Source of the DNA: Cyclobacteriaceae bacterium
GTDB taxonomy: Bacteria > Bacteroidota > Bacteroidia > Cytophagales > Cyclobacteriaceae
Reading direction: 5' to 3'
Length of the DNA: 64,000 bases
Assembly: GCA_019638395.1 (NCBI GenBank)
Contig: JAHBTX010000001.1
Location: forward strand, 1-64,000
A model generated the notes under the pieces. The model was not told where the DNA came from. It ran no database searches and saw only the letters and a list, made by a program, of their open reading frames with translations. Below, piece by piece: positions 33,769 to 37,437 of the stretch (position 1 is its first letter; every line of letters starts with the position of its first letter). Position numbers and translations under genes: made by a program.

Positions 33769-34524
33769 TTATGCTACGGTTGCTTCGCTTTTAATCCAAT
33801 CGTAACCTTTAGCTTCTAATTCCAGGGCTAGTTCTTTGGTGCCCGATTTTACAATCTTGCCTTTATAAAGCACATGCACGTAATCAGGAACGATGTAATC
33901 GAGCAGGCGCTGGTAGTGCGTTACTACTACTACCGCATTATTTTTGTTACGAAGTTTATTTACGCCATTGGCTACAATACGCAAGGCATCGATGTCAAGC
34001 CCTGAATCGGTTTCATCCAGCAAAGCAAGTTTGGGTTCCAACATCGCCATTTGAAAGATCTCGTTGCGTTTTTTCTCGCCACCAGAGAAACCTTCATTTA
34101 ATGATCGGTTCAAGAGTGATTGGTCGATTTCAACCAACTTCATTTTTTCTTTCATTAGTTGCAGAAACGAAACTGCATCCAACGCTTGTTGACCACGGTA
34201 TTCCCGAATCTGGTTGAGAGCAGTCTTCATAAAGTTGATGGTGCTTACGCCTGGAATTTCTACCGGATATTGAAAGGCCATAAAGATACCTTCACGGGCA
34301 CGGTCTTCAGGTGAAAGTTCCAGTAGGTCTTTACCCAGAAAATCAACTTCGCCACCGATAACTTCGTATTCTTCGCGACCCGATAATACCGATGCGAGTG
34401 TACTTTTGCCAGAACCATTGGGCCCCATAATGGCGTGCACTTCACCGGCATTTACGTTCAGGTCAATCCCATTCAGGATTTGTTTCTCACCAATTTTTGC
34501 TTGTAGATTTTTGATATTTAACAT
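33769..34524 (-). CDS. sufC: SufC ATPase subunit
   Basis: A 251-aa ABC-type ATPase that drives SufBCD. Motifs in order: Walker A GPNGSGKST (about 34-42), the SufC-specific FMAFQYPVEIPGVS, signature LNEGFSGGEKKRNE (about 145-155), Walker B with LALLDETDSGLDIDAL, and the switch His in VVTHYQRLL. The spacing upstream is disturbed: a four-helix-bundle gene with flanking inverted repeats separates it from sufB, with which it is usually adjacent. Confidence 0.96.
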   Translation of the reverse strand: MLNIKNLQAKIGEKQILNGIDLNVNAGEVHAIMGPNGSGKSTLASVLSGREEYEVIGGEVDFLGKDLLELSPEDRAREGIFMAFQYPVEIPGVSTINFMKTALNQIREYRGQQALDAVSFLQLMKEKMKLVEIDQSLLNRSLNEGFSGGEKKRNEIFQMAMLEPKLALLDETDSGLDIDALRIVANGVNKLRNKNNAVVVVTHYQRLLDYIVPDYVHVLYKGKIVKSGTKELALELEAKGYDWIKSEATVA

Positions 34525-34557: not shown

Positions 34558-34965
34558 TTATTTATTTTGTTTCCTGTTTATGAATTTTGATCCCTTAATT
34601 TCTGATAGGGATAAGTAGTTCATAAAACCTCCAATTTGCTTGCCTACTTCCGTTGCTTGTTTTGTTAGCGTGTTAAACTCACCTTCAGTGATGTGATTTC
34701 TGTCTTTTGCTCTATACAACTGAGAACGAACTTCACCGCATGATCCTTTTGAATAGGATAAAAACTGAATGAATTCTTTGTTCCCGCCTCGCTCAAACCC
34801 CTCAGCAATATTATCCATTACCGAACCAGACGAACGGTTTATCTGATCACGTAAACTAAAATCCTTTGAGAATGAATTGGTCAATGTTTGATTCCATACA
34901 TCATTGGCTAAAACTCTTGCTTTTTGCCAAACTTCAAGATCCTCAAAAGATTTTATTGTTGCCAT
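34558..34965 (-). CDS. Four-helix-bundle (S23/IVP-like) protein inserted in the suf operon
   Basis: A 135-aa protein of the family once called S23 or 23S-intervening-sequence protein: KSFEDLEVWQKARVLANDVWN at the N-terminus, SLRDQINRSSGSVMDNIAEGFERGGNKEFIQFLSYSKGSCGEVRSQLYRA in the middle, then a basic tail. Four helices without catalytic residues are expected. The role of the family is not established; copies turn up in unrelated operons in Bacteroidota. Here it splits sufB from sufC and is flanked by inverted repeats (34523-34546 and 34966-34998), which suggests that it arrived as a unit. It can still be cotranscribed with suf genes. Confidence 0.9.
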   Translation of the reverse strand: MATIKSFEDLEVWQKARVLANDVWNQTLTNSFSKDFSLRDQINRSSGSVMDNIAEGFERGGNKEFIQFLSYSKGSCGEVRSQLYRAKDRNHITEGEFNTLTKQATEVGKQIGGFMNYLSLSEIKGSKFINRKQNK

Positions 34966-34998
34966 AATCCGAAATTTTGAATTTTAAATTCGAAATTT
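34966..34998 (-). repeat. Right inverted repeat flanking the four-helix-bundle gene
   Basis: Begins AATCCGAAATTTTGAATT and continues with a 7-base extra segment TTAAATT-like before CGAAATTT. Apart from that segment it is the reverse complement of 34523-34546. It ends at the sufB stop codon region. Confidence 0.6.
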
Positions 34999-36442
34999 AT
35001 CCAACACTTCCCTCTAGAGTTAACGCCAACAATTTTTGTGCTTCTACCGCAAACTCCATGGGTAATTGATTCAGTACTTCTTTGGCATAACCATTTACAA
35101 TCAAGGCTACCGCTGATTCTTCATCGATGCCGCGTTGCAAACAATAAAAGATTTGATCTTCGCCAATCTTGGAGGTAGTTGCCTCGTGCTCAATACGAGC
35201 CGAGTTATTCTCTACATCAATGTAAGGGAAGGTGTGCGCGCCACATTGATCGCCCATCAGTAATGAATCGCACTGTGAGTGGTTGCGCGCGTTGGCCGCC
35301 CGCTTCATAATATGCACCTGGCCACGGTAGCTGTTTTGCGATTTGCCAGCTGAAATACCTTTGCTCACAATCCGCGAACGTGTGTTCTTACCAATGTGAA
35401 TCATCTTGGTGCCGGTATCGGCTTGCTGATAGTTATTGGTAACAGCTACCGAATAAAATTCACCCACCGAATAATCACCTTTAAGGACACAAGATGGATA
35501 CTTCCAGGTAATGGCCGATCCGGTTTCTACTTGTGTCCACGAGATTTTAGAATGATCGCCTGCGCAGAAACCACGCTTGGTTACGAAGTTGTAAATACCA
35601 CCTTTGCCATGCTTATCACCCGGATACCAGTTTTGAACAGTTGAGTATTTTATTTCGGCACCCTGCATGGTATAGAGTTCTACCACAGCTGCGTGTAATT
35701 GATTTTCATCGCGCATGGGCGCAGTGCAGCCTTCTAAATAACTTACATATGAGCCTTCATCGGCTACAATCAACGTTCTTTCAAACTGACCGGTATTGGC
35801 TGCGTTAATGCGGAAGTAAGTAGATAACTCCATGGGGCAACGTACACCTTTCGGGATGTAGCAGAAGGAGCCATCGGAGAATACTGCTGAGTTAAGTGCA
35901 GCAAAATAGTTATCGTTCATCGGTACAACCGAACCGAGGTATTTTTTTACCAACTCCGGATGTTCTTTTACTGCCTCACTGAAAGAACAGAAGATGATAC
36001 CGAGTTCACTTAGTTTTTCTTTAAAGGTTGTAGCAACAGAAACACTATCGATTACGGCATCAACAGCTATACCGGTTAATCTTTTTTGCTCGGTTAAACT
36101 AATGCCCAGTTTTTCAAAAGTTTTAATTAGTTCAGGATCAACTTCATCCAAACTGTTGGGTTTTACTTTTTGCTTGGGCGCAGAGTAATAAATAATATCT
36201 TGATAATTAATAGCAGGGTAGGTAACATTTGGCCATTTAGGCTCAACCATTTTCTGCCATTGCCGAAATGCTTTTAGACGCCATTCCAGCAACCATTCAG
36301 GTTCATTTTTCTTTGCAGAAATGAAGCGAACTATTTCTTCATTAAGACCTTTGGGTGCTTCATCCGTCTCCAGATTTACAGTCCAGCCATGCTCGTATTC
36401 CTTCGAGGTAATTTCTTCCAGAACCTGGTTGCTTTTGCTCAT
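34997..36442 (-). CDS. sufB: SufB scaffold subunit
   Basis: A 481-aa core subunit of the SufBCD scaffold, where the nascent cluster forms. Distinct family blocks: [19 protein letters not shown], the [20 protein letters not shown] block, [104 protein letters not shown]. Length is typical. It is the first suf gene after the promoter region 36476-36522. Confidence 0.96.
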
Positions 36443-36534: not shown

Positions 36535-36999
36535 TCAGGTGAGTTTAAGGTTTCTGTCCAGACTTTCTTCCAGCGAAATCATGGTTTCGGTTCTTTCAAT
36601 ACCTTCTACCTGTTGCATCTTATCATGAAGTACCTCTTTGAGGTGGTTTGTATCGCGGCAATGGATGCGAACAAACATGCTGTAATTACCAGTAGTGTAG
36701 TGAATGTTGGTTATTTCAGGAATGTTCTTCAGTTTGGCTAAAACCATTTCGTATAAAGCACTCTTCTCTAAGTAAATGCCAATAAATGCCGTGATGTCGT
36801 AACCGAGCTTGGCATAGTTGATTTTGAGGGTTGTTTTTTCAAGAATGCCCGCATCTTCCATCTTATTCATGCGCACATGTACGGTTCCTTGCGATACGTT
36901 AACACGTTTGGCAACTTCTGTGTAAGGACGTTTTGCATCCTGCATCAGGATTTCAAGAATCCGCAGGTCAGTATTATCGATTTCAAAATTACGACTCAT
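36535..36999 (-). CDS. Lrp/AsnC-family transcriptional regulator
   Basis: A 154-aa regulator: N-terminal winged helix (NTDLRILEILMQDAKRPYTEVAKRVNVSQGTVHVRMNKMEDAGIL, about residues 8-55) and a C-terminal RAM ligand-binding domain (ITAFIGIYLEK, NIPEITNIHYTTGNYSMFVRIHCRD). Proteins of this size sense amino acids or related small molecules. It lies upstream of sufB on the same strand with a separate promoter between, so control of suf is possible but unproven. A TAAATTTG box (37023-37016) is close to its start. Confidence 0.93.
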   Translation of the reverse strand: MSRNFEIDNTDLRILEILMQDAKRPYTEVAKRVNVSQGTVHVRMNKMEDAGILEKTTLKINYAKLGYDITAFIGIYLEKSALYEMVLAKLKNIPEITNIHYTTGNYSMFVRIHCRDTNHLKEVLHDKMQQVEGIERTETMISLEESLDRNLKLT

Positions 37000-37168
37000 T
37001 GAGCAATGTTTTTTACAAATTTATTAATCAATTATACTTATTATTAAATAATACATAAATAATTTACAGATATATTGACTTAATTTTCATTTTTTATGTT
37101 CCTTTGTGATGTAATTTATAAATCACATCAGAGACAAGTGGTTTAATATTGCAGCCAAAAGGCTAACG

Positions 37169-37257
37169 TTCTTAAAAATTGTAGGGTGTTGAATCCCGAT
37201 AGCTATCGGGAGGCAGACAAGCTCAAGTTAGTTTCTTAAAAATTGTAGGGTGTTGAA
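37169..37257 (+). repeat. 64-bp tandem duplication of the 5' part of the tRNA-like gene
   Basis: The 25-mer TTCTTAAAAATTGTAGGGTG plus TTGAA occurs at 37169-37193 and again at 37233-37257, 64 bases apart. Both are followed by GGCAGACAAG, but in the first copy an 18-bp palindrome sits where the D-loop would be. The first copy lacks the remaining arms and is a remnant. Confidence 0.8.
37194..37211. repeat. 18-bp palindromic repeat, copy 1
   Basis: TCCCGATAGCTATCGGGA, a perfect palindrome, inserted in the D-loop position of the broken tRNA-like copy. A second copy with one mismatch lies at 37331-37348. Confidence 0.85.
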
Positions 37258-37405
37258 ATTGGCAGACAAGCCCTCCTGTCTCGGGGGTGGAGAGCAAAGG
37301 ATAAACGCAAGGTAATGGGTTGACCACTAATCCCGATAACTATCGGGAGTTTTCTTATGCCTTGCAGCTAACTTCTCCGTGGAGGTTCGACCCCTCCCTC
37401 TACAG
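37244..37405 (+). ncRNA. tRNA-like RNA with a giant structured variable arm
   Basis: A 162-nt cloverleaf can be drawn. The acceptor stem is TGTAGGG (37244-37250) with CTCTACA (37398-37404), seven pairs with one G-U, then discriminator G. The D-arm is TTG/CAA with an AAATTGGCAGA loop, resembling leucine tRNAs. The anticodon-like arm is CCCTC/GGGGG with loop CTGTCTC, so GTC would be read. The T-arm is GGAGG/CCTCC with a canonical TTCGACC loop (37381-37397). Between 37288 and 37380, where a variable arm belongs, three nested stems occur: GGAGA/TCTCC, GCAAGG/CCTTGC and TCCCGATA/TATCGGGA. A terminator follows at 37412. It could be a functional tRNA-like RNA, an unusual tRNA, or a tRNA gene disrupted by palindrome insertion. 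CCA is not encoded. The U at position 37 is abnormal for a tRNA. Confidence 0.6.
37331..37348. repeat. 18-bp palindromic repeat, copy 2
   Basis: TCCCGATAACTATCGGGA, one base different from copy 1 at 37194-37211. It forms the tip of the long variable-arm hairpin of the tRNA-like RNA. Confidence 0.85.
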
Positions 37406-37411
37406 CAAGTA

Positions 37412-37437
37412 AGCCACGCAGTCCGCGTGGCTTTTTT
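37412..37437 (+). terminator. Terminator of the tRNA-like RNA gene
   Basis: AGCCACGC-AGTCC-GCGTGGCT, a perfect 8-bp stem with 5-base loop, followed by five more T residues. It begins seven bases after the discriminator position of the tRNA-like RNA. Confidence 0.88.

Follow-up and report, generated by a model that had tools for sequence, protein, structure and literature searches.

A tRNA-like RNA of Bacteroidota and some viruses, with a Leu-type body and an Asp-type loop, that very probably lies outside decoding

We found that an element in the window, the whole 64,000-nt stretch of DNA analysed here from a Cyclobacteriaceae bacterium, is on comparison of genomes a real and widespread RNA, and that it very probably represents a family of tRNA-derived RNAs that do not decode. 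By sequence its body is closest to that of tRNA-Leu. The family appears to be a broadly conserved, stable RNA of a large bacterial order and of some viruses that was overlooked by the finders we tried. Our literature searches returned no description of this RNA: none of the Bacteroidetes motif names in Table 1 of PMC2864571 suggests a tRNA-like RNA, and the text of PMC7609411 contains none of the strings bacteroid, phage and cytophag.

The element and its surroundings are laid out in Table 1. A sequence-only reading had proposed an acceptor stem, D-arm, loop CTGTCTC, T-arm, G73 and terminator for positions 37244-37405, and all of these are present. The three stems that it placed in the variable arm exist as well, except that the outer one usually has 4 bp (in alignment A4, described below, a fifth pair is broken in 112 of the 126 cells counted) and the innermost, TCCCGATA/TATCGGGA, is a palindromic repeat of the genome. 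Copies show the cloverleaf, acceptor and T stems of 7 and 5 bp, a TTCGANN loop and GG in the D-loop, with a T-stem bulge of 1-2 nt in some. U1-A72 and G2-C71 of the acceptor are invariant in A4 (125/125 counted), and the D-stem reads ATG/CAT or ACG/CGT elsewhere in the family. C74 is encoded after G73, with CA presumably added. In the broken partial copy upstream, the exact 25-nt repeat is 37169-37193; the remainder was judged by eye.

Table 1. Positions in the window of the tRNA-like RNA, its parts and its upstream neighbours
Feature	Positions	Strand	Basis or remark
tRNA-like RNA, expected mature form (nucleotides 1-73)	37244..37405	+	model R1 match, 154.9 bits
Acceptor stem, 5' strand TGTAGGG	37244..37250	+	pairs with 37398-37404, 7 bp
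Leu-like D-arm, 3-bp stem TTG/CAA	37253..37269	+	alignment, comparison with host tRNAs
Anticodon-type arm	37271..37287	+	loop CTGTCTC at 37276-37282
Long variable arm: outer stem, internal loop, inner stem, apical domain	37289..37378	+	alignments
Variable-arm internal loop GGATAAAC / GCTAAC	37299-37306 / 37367-37372	+	
Apical motif GGGTTGACCAC	37317..37327	+	with close variants, in long host copies and most viral copies
Palindromic repeat TCCCGATAACTATCGGGA, tip of variable arm	37331..37348	+	one of 11 genomic sites
T-arm, loop TTCGACC	37381..37397	+	sequence and alignment
Acceptor stem, 3' strand, and discriminator G73	37398..37405	+	G73 at 37405
Intrinsic terminator AAGCCACGC-AGTCC-GCGTGGCTT and T run	37411..37437	+	read from sequence
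Broken partial copy of leader and 5' end	37169..37227	+	split by palindrome 37194-37211
Possible promoter region, TTGACTT and CCTTTG, degenerate in window	37074..37107	+	inferred
Lrp/AsnC regulator, divergent neighbour kept with the RNA	36535..36999	-	Pfam

Standard tools passed over the element. ARAGORN called no tRNA in the window and no tmRNA at the element; Rfam 15 gave no match for it at gathering score, RF00005 included; and an RF00005 search of the whole genome listed nothing at 37244-37405. The run against the Rfam tRNA and tmRNA models that had been proposed for it came back empty, even at E <= 10. When the variable arm was swapped for a short hairpin, ARAGORN called tRNA-Asp(gtc). 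Single-sequence folding was unconvincing (z = -1.57, with 13 of 200 shuffles folding equally well), so the case for an RNA rests on comparison; the minimum free energy structure lacks the cloverleaf form of the D-arm, and energy folding of 12 viral copies favours a different D/anticodon pairing.

Searches of related genomes detected the RNA widely. BLASTN with 37230-37420 matched 71 of 96 genomes, its own included; three of these matches (G009, G029 and G069) were the palindrome alone or an unrelated place, which by reading the rows leaves 67 of 95 relatives, and not the absence from relatives that would have counted against the sequence-only reading. R1, a covariance model built from 68 copies, found the RNA in 219 of 291 genomes of the order, Cytophagales, at E <= 1e-14, and across a phylum sample 41 of 395 genomes (counted by hand) had a best E <= 1e-16, both figures including its own genome. 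We rejected a tally of 355/395 at E <= 0.01 as a family size because it includes ordinary tRNAs, and the weaker matches elsewhere that we inspected were tRNA-Leu in eight of eight. An exact 29-mer of the D/anticodon region occurs in at least 120 stretches of the species genome set; among the matches listed, 80 loci all bear names that we read as Bacteroidota, including Dyadobacter, Spirosoma, Cyclobacterium, Algoriphagus, Flammeovirga, Saprospiraceae and others, and a function outside decoding should be directly testable in the first five. The same 29-mer occurs in 41 metagenomic viral stretches, and a loop-free pattern found 61 that overlap these 41, viral here meaning metagenomic contigs called so by their source, with phage-type neighbours checked for few proteins. 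One query each against isolate-phage and plasmid collections gave no match.

Several loci hold more than one copy. In four genus relatives (L016, L019, L034 and L088) a short copy with loop CGATCTC is followed by a long copy with CTGTCTC, and tandem arrays of four to six copies occur in L070, L202, L341 and L342; in the six-copy array of L070 the spacers resemble, by eye, a hairpin followed by TATAAT. A weak tRNA-like match of 106 nt (19.4 bits) lies elsewhere in the element's own genome, at C22:566946-567051, with a good T-arm by eye and no call by ARAGORN.

Covariation supports a cloverleaf with a variable arm. The model alignment A4 holds 142 copies (127 distinct) from loci found by BLASTN, the model and the loop-free pattern, and 94.3% of its cells pair. 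A4 was itself aligned to the structure; with that caveat, both partners vary in 28 of 34 pairs against a shuffle mean of 18.7, and the covariation score is 0.456 against 0.166 in shuffles, each value reached by 0 of 500. Shifting partners by 1-3 columns lowers pairing to 48-58%, and one inner pair fails in 46 cells. A MAFFT alignment (A2) agrees, with 25 of 34 pairs changing on both sides (0/500 shuffles). Copies had entered R1 only if their acceptor and T stems paired and their loop lay no more than two changes from CCTGTCTC; the D, anticodon and variable stems were no part of this filter. The covarying stems that the sequence-only reading had hoped for are thus present, and its view of a tRNA-like RNA gene with a class II-like body, an Asp-type loop and its own terminator, distinct from random sequence, is supported.

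Several positions of the anticodon-type loop and the acceptor end are constant. U35, C36 and C38 occur in all 142 copies of A4, which were selected without a loop criterion, and in all 195 distinct copies pooled over all sets; the 29-mer contains the loop, so the 195-copy set undercounts loop variation and A4 is the fairer set. Position 34 in the 195 is G in 174, A in 15, U in three and C in three. G73 is found in 193 of the 195, the remaining two rows ending before this position, and G2-C71 is invariant among the aligned copies. At position 10 most rows of A4 have A (97 of 127), mostly as A10-U25. C74 is encoded in 212 of 212 copies, a separate set that was also selected through a loop filter, as it is in all 30 ordinary tRNAs checked. 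The identity set of AspRS comprises G34, U35, C36, C38, G73, G2-C71 and G10. Most of this set coincides with positions constant in the RNA (U35, C36, C38, G73 and G2-C71), which is why we propose recognition by AspRS, a step to which we give somewhat less than an even chance. The earlier claim of Asp identity thus stands for these positions and falls short at 34 and 33, which vary, and position 10 is likewise not fixed as G. Against recognition by AspRS also stand U1-A72, unlike the G1-C72 of host tRNA-Asp, and the single AspRS: in 26 of 29 genomes one match exceeded the family cut-off and in 0 of 29 two did. A second AspRS as partner of the RNA was therefore set aside, as nothing of the kind was found above that cut-off in the 29 genomes.

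Upstream of the RNA, 112 of 158 host loci carry a divergent gene from a single protein cluster (median distance 163 nt, range 115-357), and the window's member of this cluster is Lrp/AsnC by Pfam. By set, the linkage holds in 30/30 loci of the genus, 15/19 of the order, 22/30 of the phylum and, among the matches listed, 45/79 of the named set, some species being present in two of these sets. Where at least 700 nt of upstream flank was available it was found in 111 of 147 host loci and missing in 36, and no Lrp lay within 2.5 kb of the RNA in any of the 41 viral loci examined. The closest Lrp to that of the window, among the matches listed, is 85% identical and belongs to a MAG of the Cyclobacteriaceae (L226). 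The genes downstream differ among loci; an AMP-binding enzyme forms the most frequent cluster (34 loci). The motif TAnnTTTG points towards the RNA in 69 of 112 intergenic regions (mononucleotide shuffles 16.7, sd 3.8, max 28) and occurs on the lrp strand in 46 of 112; 64 of the 69 copies end 18-66 nt ahead of the RNA. KTTCTT lies within 45 nt of the RNA in 24 of 112 (shuffles 5.9, sd 2.5, max 15), and in 20 of the 24 at 11-15 nt. Elsewhere in the window, a 135-aa ORF at 34558-34965 that by eye resembles the 23S-rRNA-intervening-sequence (four-helix bundle) protein sits between sufB (34997-36442) and an ABC-ATPase-like ORF (33769-34524) on the same strand.

The variable arm differs greatly among lineages. 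Full-arm copies range from 108 to 195 nt, and six genomes of one genus (g13, which we guess may be Hymenobacter) carry a form of 76 nt whose variable loop has 7 nt and whose anticodon-type loop reads CTATCTC; this last loop was read with a pattern presupposing UC.C, and the full sequences confirm it. The 76-nt forms retain the anticodon-type loop and G73 despite the loss of the long arm. By eye, a terminator hairpin follows in six of six loci, TAnnTTTG stands upstream in four and TAnnTTTA in two; no Lrp was found in the six loci of ~3 kb. Since these forms do without it, the arm is, on this comparison, dispensable and accessory, and the family offers a natural experiment in which an arm has apparently grown to about 100 nt or been deleted while loop and acceptor end stayed fixed. 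Some copies suggested that the anticodon-type loop pairs with GGAYA in the arm; we rejected this, since other copies break the pairing and the 76-nt forms have the loop without the arm.

Within this otherwise variable arm the apical motif GGGUUGACCAC, or a close variant, recurs, which together with the Lrp linkage would suit a trans-acting regulatory RNA that keeps the tRNA fold for stability and processing only and acts by base pairing, through loop UCYC or the apical motif, or by binding a protein such as Lrp. There is precedent in tRNAOther, reported outside translation with predicted mRNA targets (PMC3399842). However, the motif is missing from short copies and 76-nt forms, viral loci lack Lrp, and the canonical acceptor, T-arm, G73 and C74 are less well explained; we regard this reading as possible though doubtful.

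Genes near the viral copies encode thymidylate synthase, PhoH-like proteins and a terminase large subunit, the last from a cluster present at 19 of 41 viral loci. A scan of 36 viral stretches found tRNA or tmRNA genes in 17 and none in the other 19; three hold a tmRNA, and two (L111 and L116) a separate normal tRNA-Asp(GTC) beside the RNA. In a tree from 118 columns of A4 the viral copies, which are those added by the loop-free pattern alone, form two pure clades of five and seven distinct sequences. In five viral loci the RNA lies 4 nt from tRNA-Ser(UGA), three of them (L089, L112 and L121) carrying an identical copy. This placement is what a substrate of SerRS might show, and SerRS, which recognises a long arm and G73 according to PMC7609411, could serylate such an RNA whatever its anticodon. 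Yet the 76-nt forms lack the long arm, the D-arm is Leu-like and the constant U35, C36 and C38 would be left unexplained, so that we consider a SerRS substrate improbable.

The arm tips of viral copies are often self-complementary, with GCGCGC, GTGCAC and others. Of 34 distinct viral segments, 27 have a perfect palindrome of at least 6 after GACCAC, where shuffles give 13.2 (sd 2.7, max 21), and 17 have one of at least 8 (shuffle mean 4.2, max 9), counts that take copies as independent, ignoring kinship, and that score as lacking a palindrome at least two segments (L288 and L296) anchored at the wrong GACCAC. Host segments show no excess (33/104 vs 34.4), and RNAfold places the viral palindromes in varying contexts. 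Because many different palindromes occupy the same place, we suggest that self-pairing of viral arm tips may have been selected.

A decoding tRNA for GAC/GAU with an unusual body is quite improbable, even though the loop CUGUCUC gives most copies the anticodon GUC, differing from the host tRNA-Asp loop at position 37 alone, and ARAGORN reads the arm-shortened element as tRNA-Asp and the minimal forms as tRNA-Asp(atc) (five of the five given), which we take to be a miscall. Pyrimidine 37 in 194 of the 195 distinct copies (U 188, C six, A one) and in 141 of 142 in A4 makes decoding unlikely. Position 33 is U in 177, G in ten, C in five and A in three, U33 thus being lost in 18, whereas all 36 ordinary tRNAs examined in the host have U33 and purine 37, with C38 in tRNA-Asp alone. 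Nor is a decoder missing, since the host and the two viral stretches named above hold a normal tRNA-Asp(GTC).

Highly improbable, too, is a decoy that protects tRNAs against anticodon nucleases of defence or toxin systems and is retained by phages and hosts. The Asp-type loop, the presence in viruses, some with tRNA arrays, and the tandem copies, such as the six of L070, would fit such a role; the RNA instead looks like housekeeping because most genomes of the order have it, often in the same chromosomal position.

The palindrome at the arm tip belongs to a repeat, CCCGATANCTATCGGG, with 11 sites in the genome (contigs C1, C12, C22 and C23 included) against 0 for a reversed-pattern control. 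Eight of the 11 lie inside stable RNA genes or ~150 nt or less from them. Its two sites in the window, 37194-37211 and 37331-37348, are both at the tRNA-like RNA; others fall within the genes for tmRNA and RNase P RNA and close to tRNA-His, tRNA-Arg(cct), tRNA-Leu/Gly and tRNA-Phe. Three sites (L006, L007 and L392) have no Rfam or ARAGORN match and may mark RNAs not yet recognised. By eye, only L011 and L017 among 29 other genus-level loci have a similar arm palindrome, and the 18-bp palindrome looks recent and the long arm old. A pseudogene, or an ordinary tRNA gene interrupted by a recent insertion, either of which the sequence-only reading had allowed for, would account for this repeat and for the broken partial copy just upstream but is contradicted by conservation in 219 of 291 genomes and covariation at 28 of 34 pairs, and its probability is negligible.

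We therefore return to the non-decoding tRNA-derived RNA. As a whole, the best explanation, in which this RNA is a probable ligand of AspRS and its function is inferred, has in our view about an even chance. The gene would make a stable RNA, selected against decoding, that is expressed, undergoes tRNA-type processing and is recognised and perhaps charged by AspRS; serving outside decoding as ligand or aspartyl carrier, it could then report on or divert aspartate or AspRS. The divergent Lrp/AsnC regulator would control it in hosts, some large phages would carry it alongside their own tRNA and tmRNA genes, and the variable arm would be an added module that varies by lineage. Recognition by AspRS and control by Lrp are the best-supported of these steps, and both are predicted. 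Weighing against the whole are the host, 76-nt and viral loci without Lrp, the viral stretches without a tRNA gene and the different folding of viral copies. The fullest picture is tentative and rather unlikely to hold in every part: an RNA class not described before and typical of one part of the Bacteroidota, with a tRNA-Leu body, an Asp-recognition loop and decoding barred by pyrimidine 37, serving as AspRS ligand or aspartyl carrier under Lrp/AsnC and re-encoded by some large phages, whose arm-tip palindromes may let viral copies kiss as dimers.

Among known systems, tmRNA is likewise a long RNA with tRNA-type ends, and three viral stretches hold both; the RNA differs in having complete D- and anticodon-type arms, the host encodes a tmRNA elsewhere, and ARAGORN found no tRNA-like domain with a tag reading frame. 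We know of no giant variable arm in tRNAOther. Allo-tRNAs and tRNA-Sec-like species have extended acceptor branches of 8/4 or 9/3, and this RNA has 7/5. In PMC3399842, tRNAOther is a Bacillus cereus pseudo-tRNA that, compared by description only, is also tRNA-like and not translational, but it belongs to B. cereus and some other Bacilli and has a Trp anticodon. Allo-tRNAs and selC* tRNA-Cys resemble our RNA in having unusual bodies but, according to PMC7609411, share tRNA-Sec features such as a longer acceptor stem, against 7 bp and a T-stem of 5 bp here. With tRNA-Leu the RNA shares the D-arm and general body; it differs in G73 and U1-A72 (all five tRNA-Leu genes of the host carry A73 and G1) and in its Asp-type loop, pyrimidine 37 and a variable arm of up to about 100 nt or none. 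With tRNA-Asp(GUC) it shares, in its common form, C32 U33 G34 U35 C36, C38, G73 and G2-C71, and it departs from tRNA-Asp in its pyrimidine 37, unfixed positions 33 and 34, mostly A10-U25, U1-A72 and class II-like arm.
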